DNA of 64,000 nt from Methanobrevibacter millerae (GTDB taxonomy: Archaea; Methanobacteriota; Methanobacteria; Methanobacteriales; Methanobacteriaceae). This document shows positions 43,982-58,112 of the stretch, piece by piece. Made by a program: the position numbers and the translations under genes. Within the stretch, counting starts at the first letter, position 1, and each line of letters opens with the position of its first letter. The DNA lies in assembly GCF_900103415.1 (NCBI RefSeq), contig NZ_FMXB01000001.1, positions 124,001-188,000 of the forward strand, read 5' to 3'. The notes beneath the pieces were generated by a model. The model did not search any database, was not told the origin of the DNA, and saw only the letters and a program-made list of their open reading frames with translations.

Positions 43982-44773
43982 ATGTTTTATTTAGTAGGTT
44001 TAGGTTTATTTGATGAAAAGGATATTTCCCTAAAGGGTTTGGAATGTTTAAAAAATGTAGATAAGATTTATGCCGAATTCTTCACTTCCCGCTTGTTCGG
44101 TTCAAGTTTTGATGAAATTGAATCCTTAATCGGTAAAAAGATTGAGGTTCTTGTCAGGGGTGAAGTCGAAGAGGAGCACAAATTCATTGAAGAGGCAAGG
44201 GATTCTGACGTTGCGCTGATTACCGGAGGAGATCCCCTTATTGCAACTACTCACAGTGATTTTCTTATTCAGTGCTCCAAAAAGGGAATAGAATATGAGG
44301 TCATTCACGGATCATCAATTTTATCTTCCGCTCCGGCTATTTCCGGGCTTCAGGGATACAAGTTCGGTAAGGTGACAACCATTCCGTTCCCGGACTATAA
44401 TTTCTATCCTAAATCTCCATATATGGCAATTGAAGAGAACCTGAAGTCAAATCTTCACACCCTCGTTCTGCTTGACATTCAGGCACACAATGACCGCTAC
44501 ATGACGGTTAACGAAGGCCTGGAATACCTGATGAATATACGCGATAGTCTGGATTACGACGGATTGGTCGGTGAAGATACTCTGGCTGTAGGTATTGCCC
44601 GCGTAGGTTCAAGCGACGTTGTCGTAAAGGCGGGAAAAATATCTGATTTAATCGATTTTGACTTTGGAGGACCGCTTCACTGCATCGTTATACCTGCCGA
44701 ATTACATATCGTTGAGGCTGAGTATCTCGTTGAGATTGCAGGCGCCGATTCTTCCATTCTGGATGATGTTTAA
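43982..44773 (+). CDS. dph5: Diphthine synthase
   Basis: 264 residues of the tetrapyrrole-methylase fold. It opens MFYLVGLGLFDEKDISLKGL and carries GGDPLIATTH and the later TIPFPDYNFYPKSP stretch. It methylates the modified histidine of elongation factor 2 on the way to diphthamide. ATG 43982 is preceded by A/T-rich TATA-like sequence and no ribosome site, so the message is probably leaderless. ATG 43955 is in frame but unlike the family start. Confidence 0.93.
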   Translation: MFYLVGLGLFDEKDISLKGLECLKNVDKIYAEFFTSRLFGSSFDEIESLIGKKIEVLVRGEVEEEHKFIEEARDSDVALITGGDPLIATTHSDFLIQCSKKGIEYEVIHGSSILSSAPAISGLQGYKFGKVTTIPFPDYNFYPKSPYMAIEENLKSNLHTLVLLDIQAHNDRYMTVNEGLEYLMNIRDSLDYDGLVGEDTLAVGIARVGSSDVVVKAGKISDLIDFDFGGPLHCIVIPAELHIVEAEYLVEIAGADSSILDDV

Positions 44774-44780
44774 TAAAAAA

Positions 44781-44898
44781 TAGGGGAAGAAGAAGTAGAG
44801 ATTTACTGTCTACTTCATTCTGTTTGGTGTATTGAACAAATCTGGAGATTAAATAATATTAAATTTGTTCTATTAGACATGAAGTTTTTTTCATATCG
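44781..44898 (-). ncRNA. Candidate small RNA, copy 1
   Basis: Read on the minus strand: a TATA box TTTATATA (plus 44919-44928 region) with an A/G-rich BRE, then ~25 bases later the conserved AAACGAT, a stem ATGAA/TTCAT, a stem with arms 44863-44870 and 44834-44841, and a final stem GAAGTAGA/TCTACTTC (44809-44816 and 44792-44799) followed by pyrimidines and six T. The second stem differs from copy 2 in sequence but pairs in both. Its loop carries AATCTCCA, complementary to ribosome sites. Length about 118 nt. Confidence 0.55.
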
Positions 44899-45149
44899 TT
44901 TAATATTATGTTTTAATTATATATAAATCTTTTTATGGTAATACTCTATTATGATTAAAATTTTCTTGTTTTAGGCTTTAAATCCATATTTAATGATGTC
45001 TTGATTAGTATTTTTTAAAAATCACGGTTTTAATTCGAAATTTGGCTATAAAATCATTAAGTTAATTATTGATATTGTGTTTTTATTTGTTAAACGTTAA
45101 AATAAGCGATTGTGTTGGAGCAATAGTTATTTTTATGGTGTAGGTGATT

Positions 45150-45272
45150 AGGGGAGGGGGGAAGTAGAATCATTTAGTTCTACTTCGTGTTTTTAATTGC
45201 AATGAACTAAATTTGGAGATTATAAAATGATCGACTGATGTTCATTGTAGACATGAATTTTATTTCACATCG
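45150..45272 (-). ncRNA. Candidate small RNA, copy 2
   Basis: Same order as copy 1 on the minus strand: TTTATATA (plus 45294-45302 region), AAACGAT, TGAA/TTCA stem, a stem with arms 45240-45247 and 45200-45207 (different sequence from copy 1, still eight perfect pairs), the AATCTCCA loop, and the GAAGTAGA/TCTACTTC stem (45179-45186, 45161-45168). It ends in a C-rich tail, CCCCCCTCCCC, without a T-run, so its terminator is weaker than copy 1. Confidence 0.55.
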
Positions 45273-45416
45273 TTTATTATTATGTTTTCATACTATATAA
45301 ATCTTTTCTTTGAATTTCATTTGTGCAATCTTTTTGGCCCGTTATTTTTCAGGGCATGAAATCCTTGTTGCGTGATGTTTGTTTAAATCGCCTTTTTTTT
45401 AGAAAAAATGTATGCT

Positions 45417-45481: not shown

Positions 45482-48400
45482 ATGAAAATTAAATATTTGA
45501 TTTGTGTCTGTTTAATGGTACTTTTTTTAATGTCAGTAGCTGGCGTATCAGCCAGTGATTATGTAAACCATACAGCAGACAATGAATTATTGTCAGCCGG
45601 CGTATCTGATGATGCTGTCGGCCTGTCATGTGAGGATAATGTAATTTCAAGCGATAATCGTGACTGGTATGTGAATGCCAGTGCGGCTGATGGAGGTGAT
45701 ACTTCTAATATTGCTTCTTATAATAATTTTAGAAGTGTTTTGGATAATTCTCCTCTTCGGGATGAAGAATGCACAATCTTTTTAGAAAACATGAATGTAG
45801 ACCCTGAATTATCTGTTGCAGTTGATTCTCAGGTGACTGATTATGGCAGCAATACCACAATTCTCCTTGACTATAATGTTAATGCAACAGGAAAGGTCAA
45901 TATAACTTTAACCGGTGATGAATATAATTACTCATTTGAAGATATTGCATTAAATGCAAGCATTACGCTTCCAGAAATGATTTTGCCGGACAATTATAAT
46001 ATAACTGTTTCATATAGTGGGGATGAAACATTCACAAATGCAACTGCAAATGCAACATTAATTATCAATAAATTAAAACCTGAATTGTCAGTTGAAGATT
46101 CCGTCATCGTTTATGGTGAAATAATAATGATAATCCTTCACTACAACGATAATGCAACTGGATTGACAAATATCTACTTTAAAGGCGAAAAATATGGTGG
46201 CGATGCATGGTATGAGCCTTTAAACAATACAGTCATTATAGAGTTCAGCCTTCTTCCTGATGTCTATAATGTGACCGTTGAATACTTTGGAAACCAAATA
46301 TTTGAAAGTGCAACTGCAAATGCAACATTAATAATAAACAAACTGGATTCTGAGCTGTCTGTTGAAGCTCCGACTATCACATTCGGTGAAGATATTGTGC
46401 TTTACTTGGATTATAATGAGAATGCTACTGGTATGGTGGATATTGGTATTGCTGGTTCTGGTGGTTTTATTATTGCTTTAAATCAAACTTTAAATGGAAC
46501 GCTCACTTTTGTTGATACTTTGGATCCTGGAGATTATATTGTGTCTGTTTACTATCATGGTGATGATATTTTCAATGAAACTAACATTATGGATGTTAAT
46601 CTGACAATCAATAAAGTTGATATTGCTCCAGAAATTAATTTAAACGATACTATAATGACCGTTAATGTTTCTAATGATGCTTTAGGCAATATCACATTAA
46701 CTCTTGGAAATAATACATTAATATCTAAAATTAATGATGGAATTGCTGAATTTAACTTATCGGAGATTCCTGACGGCGATTACGATGCTAATTTGACCTA
46801 TCCTGGTGATGACATTTATAACGGATTTGAAGAAATCGTGCCTGTCTCAATCAAATCTGACTTCAATATGATGGCTGAAAATCTTACCAAATATTATGGC
46901 GGAAGCGAAGCGTTTCTGGTTGAAGTAATCAACGTTAAAGGCCAGCCTTTACGAGGTAAAACCGTTCAGATTACTATCAATGGAGTTACATATAACAGGA
47001 TTACCAATGAAAGAGGTATTGCCAGACTCAATATTAATTTAAACACCGGGCAATATCCTGCGAGTGCCAGCTTAGAAAATAAAACAGTTAATGTGACAGT
47101 TACTGTACTGTCAACCGTTAACGGAACAGACATTACAAAGGTCTATAAGGATGGAACTAGCTATAATGCAACATTCCTTGACGGTAAAGGCAATTTCCTT
47201 GAAAACGGAACCGGGGTTAAGTTCAACATCAATGGCGTAATCTATAATGCAAACGTTTCAGGAGATAGTGGTTTGGCGCAATTAAACGTAGATTTGCCTG
47301 CCGGCGAATACATAGTTACTGCAACCAATCCTGTGACGGGCGAAAATACTGCAAATAACATTACTATGATTAAGGCAGATTCCAACATTTCCGTTGAAGC
47401 CCATAATGTCAGCTACAGCGAATGGAACGGCATTATTGCAGATATCCTTTTACCTGGCGATGCGACAGGAAATGTCAGAGTAACAATCGGAAACGATACT
47501 TCAGTCTATGACATCAACTCATCCGAACACAAAATTATCTCAGATAAAACAGTTCTCTTCATCAGAAACGGCAGTTTGGATGTCGGTGAATATAACATTT
47601 CAGCAACCTATGAAGGAAATGAATATTACAATTCATCAGGAGATAACGCTGTATTTAATGTATTGAAAGCGGATTATAACATTACCATTAACACTTTTGA
47701 CATTAATGTGACTGACGTTAATGCTGCTGTTGCGCTCATCAGATTGCCGGGCGATGCAAGAGGCAACGTATCCGTAAGCATTAATGACGATGATTTCACG
47801 ATAGAGATTAACGCCACTACCGTAAGGGGAATTAACGGAGCATTGTTAATGCCTGTTTATAACAAAGCCTATCCTGCGGGAGATTACAACATCTCAGCCG
47901 TTTACGGCAGTGATTCATACGAGCAGTCAAGCGCAAACGGCACTTTCAAGGTCTCAAAAGTATCATGCACTTCAAACGTCACGGTAAACGATACAAATGT
48001 CACGGTTGAAGTTCCTGAAGATGCAGAAGGCAATATCACATTGTCTATTGGCAATGGAACTATTGTCTCACCGATTGAAAACGGAACCTCATCATTTGAC
48101 TTAAGCGATGTTCCTTCAGGGGAATATAATGCAACTTTAATCTATGGCGGAGATGACATATACAACGGATTTGAAATTGTCTGTCCGATTTCCATTGAAG
48201 ACAAATTCATCATAACAGCCGAGAATCTAACCAAATACTATGGCGGGTCTGAAAGATTCTCAGTAAACCTTACGGATAGACAAGGCAATCCTATTGCAAA
48301 TGCTACTGTAGGCATTACTCTTAACGGTTTGGGTTATGTTAGGGTTACTGATGAAAACGGTTCAGCATCAATTGCCGTTAACCTGAACTCCGGTGAATAT

Positions 48401-49225
48401 CCTGTTGTCGTAAGTTATGATGGCACTTCCGTTAATGCAACAGTCACTGTCTTGACTACCGTTAATGGCACTGACGTTGTTAAAGTATTTAGAAACGCAA
48501 CCCAATACTATGCAACGTTCCTTGACAGCGAAGGCAAATTCCTGGCTAATGGAACTGATGTTCAATTTAACATTAATGGTGTATTATATGACCGCAAGGT
48601 ATCTGGAAATGAAGGTCTGGCAAGATTAAACATTAACTTGGAACAGGGTGAATATATAATTACTGCAATAAATACGGTTACTGGAGAAAACACTGCTAAT
48701 AACATCACAGTTTTACCTAAAATCATTGAAAACAGTGACATAACCAAATATTATCGTAATGCCACTCAGTACACCGTTAAAGTCATAGGTGATGATGGAA
48801 AAGCTGTAGGCGCCAATGTAACGGTCAAGTTCAACATCAACGGTGTTTTCTATGAAAGGACTACCAACGAATCAGGCATTGCCAAGCTCAACATTAACCT
48901 GCAGCCTGGAGACTATGTCATAACTGCTGAGTATGAGGGGTGCATGGTTTCAAACAACATCACTGTCCTTCAGGTATTGTCCGCCGATAACATGACTAAA
49001 AAGTACGGCACTCCGGACCAGTTCGTTGCAACGCTCGTTGACGGTCAGGGCAACCCTTATACAGGCCAAAACGTAACCTTCAACATCAATGGAGTCTTCT
49101 ACAGCAAGACAACAGATTCCGAAGGTCAATCCAAGCTCAACATTAACTTGATGCCTGGAGAATACATCATAACCTCAAGCTATGACGGAACCAATATCGC
49201 AAATAAAATTACTGTAACCGGCTGA
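45482..49225 (+). CDS. Large secreted adhesin-like protein with Ig-like repeats
   Basis: 1,247 residues. The signal peptide is MKIKYLICVCLMVLFLMSV then AGVSA. After a Ser/Asp-rich linker come three ~90-residue Ig-like units ending in TLIINK or similar, then several alternating units of the Big-type family with the recurring FNINGV...RLNINL...G(E/D)Y pattern. It ends with a KKYGTPDQFVATLVDGQGN domain typical of the C-termini of Methanobrevibacter adhesin-like proteins; no membrane anchor or sortase motif follows. Many N-glycosylation sequons (NAT, NIT). Probably a surface protein that binds other cells or host material. Terminated by a hairpin that includes the stop codon. Confidence 0.88.
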   Translation: MKIKYLICVCLMVLFLMSVAGVSASDYVNHTADNELLSAGVSDDAVGLSCEDNVISSDNRDWYVNASAADGGDTSNIASYNNFRSVLDNSPLRDEECTIFLENMNVDPELSVAVDSQVTDYGSNTTILLDYNVNATGKVNITLTGDEYNYSFEDIALNASITLPEMILPDNYNITVSYSGDETFTNATANATLIINKLKPELSVEDSVIVYGEIIMIILHYNDNATGLTNIYFKGEKYGGDAWYEPLNNTVIIEFSLLPDVYNVTVEYFGNQIFESATANATLIINKLDSELSVEAPTITFGEDIVLYLDYNENATGMVDIGIAGSGGFIIALNQTLNGTLTFVDTLDPGDYIVSVYYHGDDIFNETNIMDVNLTINKVDIAPEINLNDTIMTVNVSNDALGNITLTLGNNTLISKINDGIAEFNLSEIPDGDYDANLTYPGDDIYNGFEEIVPVSIKSDFNMMAENLTKYYGGSEAFLVEVINVKGQPLRGKTVQITINGVTYNRITNERGIARLNINLNTGQYPASASLENKTVNVTVTVLSTVNGTDITKVYKDGTSYNATFLDGKGNFLENGTGVKFNINGVIYNANVSGDSGLAQLNVDLPAGEYIVTATNPVTGENTANNITMIKADSNISVEAHNVSYSEWNGIIADILLPGDATGNVRVTIGNDTSVYDINSSEHKIISDKTVLFIRNGSLDVGEYNISATYEGNEYYNSSGDNAVFNVLKADYNITINTFDINVTDVNAAVALIRLPGDARGNVSVSINDDDFTIEINATTVRGINGALLMPVYNKAYPAGDYNISAVYGSDSYEQSSANGTFKVSKVSCTSNVTVNDTNVTVEVPEDAEGNITLSIGNGTIVSPIENGTSSFDLSDVPSGEYNATLIYGGDDIYNGFEIVCPISIEDKFIITAENLTKYYGGSERFSVNLTDRQGNPIANATVGITLNGLGYVRVTDENGSASIAVNLNSGEYPVVVSYDGTSVNATVTVLTTVNGTDVVKVFRNATQYYATFLDSEGKFLANGTDVQFNINGVLYDRKVSGNEGLARLNINLEQGEYIITAINTVTGENTANNITVLPKIIENSDITKYYRNATQYTVKVIGDDGKAVGANVTVKFNINGVFYERTTNESGIAKLNINLQPGDYVITAEYEGCMVSNNITVLQVLSADNMTKKYGTPDQFVATLVDGQGNPYTGQNVTFNINGVFYSKTTDSEGQSKLNINLMPGEYIITSSYDGTNIANKITVTG
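46880..49222 (+). repeat. Ig-like domain repeats in the adhesin gene
   Basis: The FNINGV...LNINL domain occurs about seven times in this part, each ~75-90 codons, with DNA similarity strong enough for recombination. The last four units also resemble those of the second adhesin at 62168 onward. Confidence 0.7.
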
Positions 49226-57357: not shown

Positions 57358-57652
57358 TTAAAGCTCTTGTTTTTTCTTTTTATTATTTTTTACTTGTTTT
57401 AAGCCAGTTACTGTAAAAGCATATTTTTTCCAGTAATGGTCTTGTTAATTTTTTTCATATCTTTTTGATTTTAAAAATTTCACTTTTTTTTCTTTTATTA
57501 TTTATCATTAATTAATGTTTAATTGTATTTTTTGATTTACTTCTATTTGAATTAATTAATCATCATTTTATGGATTTTAACCGAGTTACTGTAATAATAA
57601 TTTTTTTCAAGTAATTGTTAACATTTATATAATATTAATGATATAAAATAAT
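57358..57652. other. Region upstream of SRP RNA with two inverted repeats
   Basis: Two related imperfect repeats occur, about 57400-57445 and 57580-57625. Each reads AGTTACTGTAA, then ~15 A/T bases, then CCAGTAA or CAAGTAA, so TTACTG and CAGTAA face each other. The second is followed closely by the TATA box TTTATATAAT (57624-57633) of the SRP RNA. Their role may be promoter-related. Confidence 0.45.
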
Positions 57653-57926
57653 AGTGGCTAGACTGGAGGGTTAGGGGTCCTCTGTAAGCACACACCCCCT
57701 TTGGTGCAGTCGAAGTTCAGAAGGCGGCTTTTCAATGAAATGTGAGCCTGGAAAAACGGCATAGAAACTTCGTCCTACAGGATTAATGGTGATGAGGTCT
57801 TTACTGGAGGGTAAAGAAGAATCATCTTTGATATAGGAACGTGTCAGGCCCGGAAGGGAGCAGCTCTACTATTAACAATTGATGCTTGTAGTATCCCGGG
57901 GTGGAGTCGGGTTTTCAGATCACTCA
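57653..57926 (+). ncRNA. ffs: Signal recognition particle 7S RNA
   Basis: About 274 nt. The invariant helix-8 motif CAGGCCCGGAAGGGAGCAGC is at about 57848-57867. The 5' part GTGCAGTCGAAGTTCAGAAG and an Alu-like start with a T-shaped fold fit archaeal 7S RNA, and AGTG at the 5' end can pair with CACT at the 3' end. A TATA box lies ~27 bases before 57653. Ends are approximate. The RNA pairs with SRP19 and SRP54 for membrane targeting. Confidence 0.9.
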
Positions 57927-58028
57927 TGTTTTTGCGATTTGTCCACTTCTGGACATGCCATTATTTAAAAATAAATAACTTTATAAATAACTTATTTACA
58001 TATAATGTTATATCTTGTTTTATTTGTT

Positions 58029-58112
58029 GTCGGGATGGCCCAGCCTGGTACGGCGTCGGACTGCTAATCCGATGGTCATATGACCACCCGGGTTCAAATC
58101 CCGGTCCCGGCG
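58029..58112 (+). tRNA. tRNA-Ser (GCT)
   Basis: 84 nt. Acceptor GTCGGGA pairs with TCCCGGC (58105-58111), discriminator G. Anticodon arm TCGGA-CTGCTAA-TCCGA gives anticodon GCT. A long variable arm GGTC-ATAT-GACC confirms a type II serine tRNA, and GGTTCAAATC is the T loop. CCA is not encoded, and no intron is present. Confidence 0.95.

Follow-up and report, generated by a model that had tools for sequence, protein, structure and literature searches.

The locus and its two predicted tandem RNA genes

The window analysed here is the whole stretch of 64,000 nucleotides taken from Methanobrevibacter millerae, and the genome containing it (2.72 Mb) is designated G000. The minus strand of this window carries two diverged tandem copies of one predicted structured RNA gene, named A and B, whose units lie 374 bp apart between dph5 and a gene encoding a 1247-aa protein with Ig-like repeats (Table 1). 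Each copy displays a TATA promoter, a 5' hairpin, a stem presenting a loop and, ahead of a C-rich tail, a 3' hairpin of the form GAAGTAG/CTACTTC. The tandem copies had been recognized in an earlier note made from the sequence alone, and the elements named there (the TATA box, AAACGAT, a small ATGAA hairpin, an 8-bp stem around AATCTCCA and a GAAGTAGA/TCTACTTC stem) are all in place in both copies.

Archaeal transcription usually starts about 25 nt past the centre of the TATA box, and the predicted RNA would therefore begin at the foot of hairpin 1. Hairpin 3 is followed in copy B by a C-rich tail and in copy A by CCCCTATTTTTT, which is both C-rich and U-rich; the 3' end of the RNA is probably located here in both cases. 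With a TATA promoter of its own, a terminal hairpin and C-rich tail, and with fdhA (the gene matched by its loop, see below) on another contig, each copy has the appearance of a stand-alone gene.

Table 1. Coordinates of the predicted RNA genes, their elements and the dph5 neighbour (positions in the window)
Feature	Position	Strand	Basis and remarks
dph5 (diphthine synthase), convergent neighbour, outside the RNA	43982..44773	+	TIGR00522, 332.8 bits, E 1e-99
Copy A, predicted diverged paralogous small RNA, dph5-proximal	44770..44901	-	Covariance model 85.3 bits; fold z -4.9
Copy A TATA box	about 44918..44931	-	Sequence; centre 22 nt ahead of AAACGAT; conserved in homologues
Copy A hairpin 1, GATATGAA/TTCATGTC	44876..44897 (arms 44890-44897/44876-44883)	-	Fold; pair-preserving changes in family
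Copy A hairpin 2, GAACAAAT/ATTTGTTC	44834..44870 (arms 44863-44870/44834-44841)	-	Fold
Copy A anti-Shine-Dalgarno element, TAATCTCCAG	44842..44851	-	Match to the fdhA leader reduced to 11 nt
Copy A hairpin 3, GAAGTAGA/TCTACTTC	44792..44816 (arms 44809-44816/44792-44799)	-	Fold; double changes in family
Copy B, predicted antisense small RNA	45139..45275	-	5' end at the 45275 side; covariance model 109.8 bits; fold z -4.4
Copy B TATA box	45294..45306	-	Sequence; centre 22 nt ahead of AAACGAT; conserved in homologues
Copy B hairpin 1, GATGTGAA/TTCATGTC	45250..45271 (arms 45264-45271/45250-45257)	-	Fold; pair-preserving changes in family
Copy B hairpin 2, CAATGAAC/GTTCATTG, presenting the antisense loop	45200..45247 (arms 45240-45247/45200-45207)	-	Fold
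Copy B loop, TCGATCATTTTATAATCTCCAAA	45212..45234	-	23 contiguous nt with fdhA, G-U included; -30.2 kcal/mol
Copy B hairpin 3, GAAGTAGA/TCTACTTC	45161..45186 (arms 45179-45186/45161-45168)	-	Fold; double changes in family

The 1247-aa protein (45482-49225, plus strand) is of adhesin type with seven Big_3_5 Ig-like repeats; in other genomes its gene is not conserved beside the RNA. Rfam matches also place an archaeal SRP RNA gene at 57651-57964 (+) of the window, followed by a tRNA gene at 58029-58112 (+). Elsewhere in the genome, a third and weaker paralogue of the RNA was detected at L105:1511-1630 (-), corresponding to G000:C5:38010-38129 (-). It displays a hairpin 1 of the form GATATAAA/TTTATATC with pair-preserving changes, a TATA-like sequence of its own and the loop CCATTTTTTAATCTTCAAAATG.

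Conservation of the predicted hairpins

Both copies fold far better than shuffled sequences (z scores in Table 1), none of 200 shuffles being as good. For the comparison with homologues, 50 copies were gathered by profile search and the 46 good ones were aligned (alignment A3). In this alignment 96% of the pairs of hairpins 1 and 3 are kept, and double changes are found in 7 of their 16 pairs versus 1.9 expected in shuffles; the compensatory changes in homologues on which the earlier note had made its candidate depend do occur. Hairpin 1, whose common form is GATRTGAA/TTCATGTC, varies mostly by A-U to G-U replacement, with 30 such cells in two pairs. These changes bear on the proposal that no RNA is made and that the hairpins are DNA operator or promoter repeats, the palindrome of hairpin 1 being placed where transcription is expected to begin, a position that a repressor could occupy. 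A-U to G-U changes keep the pairing of an RNA and break a DNA palindrome, double changes are present in hairpin 3 as well, and an operator leaves the antisense match to fdhA described below without a place. This proposal was consequently rejected as very improbable.

Hairpin 2 is a longer stem enclosing the loop with AATCTCCA in both copies. It was not recovered by RNAalifold on the MAFFT alignment because its register slides between copies, and it was therefore tested copy by copy, the fold being compared with those obtained after shuffling the flanks: 39 of 46 copies surround the loop with a stem of 5 bp or more, versus a mean of 22 and a maximum of 29 with shuffled flanks. The arms of this stem had been described as pairing in both copies in spite of completely different sequences, and taken as covariation within one genome. 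The pairing does hold in both copies; the sequences share a GAAC/GTTC core, to which copy A adds AAAT/ATTT on the inward side and copy B adds CAAT/ATTG on the outward side. The difference within the window is thus a register shift around a shared core and not a column-by-column covariation.

Distribution of the family

No Rfam 15 family matches the locus at the gathering cut-off, and at E<=10 the only match is noise (patAB, E 1.3, 20.9 bits vs a cut-off of 92), which agrees with the initial impression that no known RNA family was involved. A DNA search of 100 relatives returned homologues of the same genus, with E values down to 1e-25 and commonly in tandem. A covariance model (R1) was also built and run against 151 genomes of the order. 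Within the genus (Methanobrevibacter smithii group), 57 of 67 genomes contain the RNA, a count from which G022 and G052 are excluded since the model matches there are antisense of fdhA leaders; some further model matches are likewise antisense of fdhA leaders and not RNA genes. The homologue of G034 is placed at G034:C1:761760-761910 (+). Diverged members are present in sister genera (G102, G108, G128 and G118), and convincing matches are confined to the genus and these sister genera in both the 100 relatives searched by DNA and the 151 order genomes searched with the model.

The synteny of the locus is well preserved. The dph5 gene is convergent in 60 of 60 loci tested, mostly within 20 bp of the end of the model, and the copies are in tandem in 30 of them; the 60 loci include duplicates and represent fewer than 60 separate genomes. 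The plasmid and phage collections contain no match to the RNA, and there is therefore no sign of a mobile element. The homologues keep the promoter, the hairpins, the C-rich tail and the synteny in addition to the double changes, and the initial proposal of a new non-coding RNA candidate is strengthened accordingly: by all the computational tests applied, a new non-coding RNA family is supported. No description of this putative family, of its distribution or of its link to fdhA was found in Rfam or in the open-licence PMC papers searched.

Complementarity of the loop to the fdhA start

The loop of hairpin 2 is the most conserved part of the RNA (consensus TCAACCATTTTATAATCTCCAAA; conservation 0.91 vs about 0.70-0.75 in both flanks). 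In reverse complement the loop (TTTGGAGATTATAAAATGGTTGA) has the layout of a Shine-Dalgarno sequence, a spacer, an ATG and the codons that follow. A pattern search of G000 with the 21-nt loop core retrieved a single exact site, the start of fdhA, which encodes the alpha subunit of formate dehydrogenase (TIGR01591, 714 bits) and is located just downstream of the transporter gene fdhC. The region paired by copy B (G000:C8:40245-40265, minus) comprises the RBS, the start codon and the first codons, and the -30.2 kcal/mol predicted for this duplex compares with -19.7 for the strongest among 58 further starts tried within the window. The loop is unpaired or partly paired in the predicted folds, so that a conserved and presumably accessible region is complementary to the RBS of an mRNA.

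An alternative use of the loop would be as part of a small open reading frame (MNISQPFYNLQN-like) whose product is a peptide. In 35 of 46 copies the loop is indeed crossed by an open frame of 10 codons or more; the frames, starts and lengths vary from one copy to another, a 4-nt deletion stands directly ahead of the loop in several of them, and synonymous positions of the loop are conserved as well. The peptide was rejected on these grounds and is given hardly any weight.

The match to fdhA is a property of the family and not only of this genome. In 41 genomes with the site, an RNA copy of the same genome pairs with the fdhA start over 20-28 contiguous nt, G-U allowed; these genomes are related, and such genome counts do not represent independent events. 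A Fisher test of intact RBS against long match is given no weight as proof, since any alteration of the RBS inevitably makes the match shorter. Among 54 fdhA leaders, conservation is 0.92 in the pairing part (-17 to -1) vs 0.56 at -60 to -18. The exact 23-mer TCAAYCATTTTATAATCTCCAAA occurs 64 times, in 62 stretches, in 84,980 bacterial and archaeal genomes: 31 occurrences belong to RNA copies and 33 lie antisense to fdhA starts, one of the latter (L153) being assigned from an FdhA-like translation, and nothing else is found. The records containing the 23-mer are all titled Methanobrevibacter with the exception of one contig binned as Cellulosilyticum (L147, JAGAVZ010000229.1), in which the 23-mer is of Methanobrevibacter type and which is probably mis-binned.

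These figures also allow the selectivity of the RNA to be weighed. A general anti-Shine-Dalgarno RNA with many mRNA targets, of which fdhA is merely the best, could be envisaged since any GGAGAUUAU site is a potential partner of the loop core AUAAUCUCC, and in G000 the predicted energies of a 253-aa protein gene (-32.5 kcal/mol) and of a ferredoxin gene (-28.3, about as well as fdhA) are close to that of fdhA. When these two genes, chosen for their similar RBSs in G000, were used as controls, the 16-mer was kept in 9 of 28 and 0 of 28 genomes, respectively, versus 27 of 28 for fdhA. Moreover, the match runs into codons 2-3 of fdhA, past any general RBS, and the exact 23-mer is found solely in RNA copies and fdhA. 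A general role is consequently considered quite unlikely, and fdhA is retained as the candidate target of the family.

No RNA match is found in genera with another fdhA leader (e.g. AAGGAGAGTATTAAATGG in g38); within the genus, no RNA was found in G032 and G005, where the leader is changed, and both loop and leader are changed in G008 and G013. The sister-genus genome G102 has the leader TGGAGATTATATAATGG and the RNA loop CCATTATATAATCTCCA, an A-to-T change in the leader being met by a T-to-A change in the RNA. The natural pair (leader TATATAATG with loop CATTATATA) forms 17 bp, versus 11 when either is crossed with the consensus partner. This is the only intermolecular compensating event found, and such a change would be expected where a regulator pairs with its target.

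A number of genomes depart from this pattern. G028 and G044 retain the loop, yet fdhA there has another leader and lies behind another gene (L352, G028:C6; L054, G044:C217); fdhA has perhaps been moved or replaced in these two genomes. The fdhA leader of G010 and G021 displays a 1-nt insertion, G135 combines the fdhA site with a poor loop, and in four incomplete genomes the fdhA site is present with no RNA found.

Divergence of the copies and other candidate targets

In many species the fdhA-type loop is kept in both copies; in the clade of the window, the dph5-proximal copy has drifted. The pattern search of G000 with the complement of the 21-nt copy A loop found no site with up to 3 mismatches except itself. 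On the best reading of these sequences, copy B would be the fdhA regulator in this species, and copy A may be decaying or retargeted. The ferredoxin start was the best of the copy A targets tried (-22.4), but its leader is not conserved and it is therefore not put forward as a target of this copy.

The 253-aa gene encodes a predicted membrane protein for which neither Pfam nor NCBIfam gives a significant match. Its RBS matches copy B in a 21-nt pairing at L033:1501-1521 (+), i.e. G000:C2:156310-156330 (+). It is kept in 6 of 7 genomes of the clade of the window and drifts elsewhere, and this gene may be a second, clade-specific target. As family-wide targets, the ferredoxin and 253-aa genes were both rejected, their leaders drifting across species.

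Proposed mechanism

The gene family, its structure, promoter and synteny and the conserved complementarity are read directly from the sequences compared. From these we infer that the genes are transcribed and that their products bind the fdhA mRNA and repress it in response to a signal. The favored reading, to which a probability of about 0.78 is assigned, is that of two paralogous trans-acting small RNAs that mask the start of fdhA, lower its translation and thereby regulate formate use. The mechanism can be summarized as follows. Two RNAs of about 120-135 nt, each from its own TATA promoter, would begin at the foot of the 5' hairpin and end after the 3' hairpin with its C-rich (in copy A also U-rich) tail. 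The middle stem would present the anti-Shine-Dalgarno loop, flanked by antisense to the fdhA start and first codons, and a pairing of 20-28 nt would mask the RBS and AUG of fdhA on the fdhC-fdhA mRNA. Translation of formate dehydrogenase would be lowered as a result, Fdh being made only when the RNA is low. As the pairing spans the Shine-Dalgarno sequence, the AUG and codons 2-3, its simplest consequence would be to conceal the start from the ribosome. With fdhC lying ahead of fdhA, FdhA would in this way be uncoupled from the transporter FdhC. The expression of fdh is raised by H2 limitation in methanogens (PMC3600222), and fdhAB is up in M. ruminantium co-cultured with a formate producer (PMC2812497; PMC10658910). 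These responses make H2 and formate natural candidates, and the signal is probably the supply of one or the other.

Complementarity alone leaves the sign of the effect undecided. The RNA could bind the fdhA leader and raise expression, by shielding the fdhC-fdhA mRNA from nuclease or by altering its processing; sRNA154 of Methanosarcina mazei stabilises some mRNAs and blocks another (PMC5867862), and a hairpin with a U tract stands between fdhC and fdhA. The paired Shine-Dalgarno sequence, AUG and codons 2-3 would nevertheless need to be freed again for translation, and activation is regarded as unlikely in comparison with masking of the start.

Relation to known systems and significance

The mode of action proposed, a trans-encoded antisense small RNA masking an RBS, is a known one; the new part would be the family, its distribution and the link to fdhA. 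In Staphylococcus, the multi-target small RNAs RNAIII and IsrR pair with Shine-Dalgarno sequences through a C-rich hairpin loop, and the present RNA would resemble them in this respect while differing from these bacterial RNAs by its single proposed family-wide target. The M. mazei sRNAs were compared with this RNA by description. Of these, sRNA162 is a trans-acting methanogen sRNA that pairs with the RBS and start of an operon-internal cistron, whose repression by RBS masking was proposed as probable (PMC3510493). Its pairing region is a single-stranded linker with a predicted -17.6 kcal/mol, whereas the RNA described here has a hairpin loop with 20-28 unbroken pairs, fdhA as target and usually tandem copies. 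The M. mazei sRNA154 and sRNA41 are also methanogen sRNAs acting on metabolic mRNAs (cited in PMC5867862) and differ by their targets (nitrogen fixation genes for sRNA154) and by belonging to another order of archaea.

No small RNA with a convincing target was found reported for Methanobrevibacter in the open-licence PMC papers searched. Convincing targets are available for few archaeal small RNAs in general, and the fdhA link presented here is immediately testable. Formate dehydrogenase is the key enzyme with which the principal methane producers of the rumen and of the human gut use formate. Reviews describe rumen samples without Fdh transcripts although Methanobrevibacter carry fdh genes (PMC10658910), and record formate growth in just two species of the group (PMC13135261). 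If fdhA is braked post-transcriptionally, this would provide a new handle on both the formate puzzle and methane control. More tentatively, tandem sRNAs matched to a single operon through almost perfect complementarity could constitute a dedicated, genus-wide RNA switch deciding Fdh production in the dominant gut methanogens of people and livestock, with spare copies such as copy A drifting to new targets. If true, such a switch could explain the carriage of fdhCAB in spite of seldom-seen rumen fdh transcripts and formate growth.

The region between fdhC and fdhA (L031, upstream of fdhA) contains in most genomes a GAAGC-type hairpin with a U tract, a candidate partial terminator. The RNA model matches this intergenic region too, on its antisense strand (model positions 43-114), and the RNA could therefore have arisen from an inverted copy of that region.
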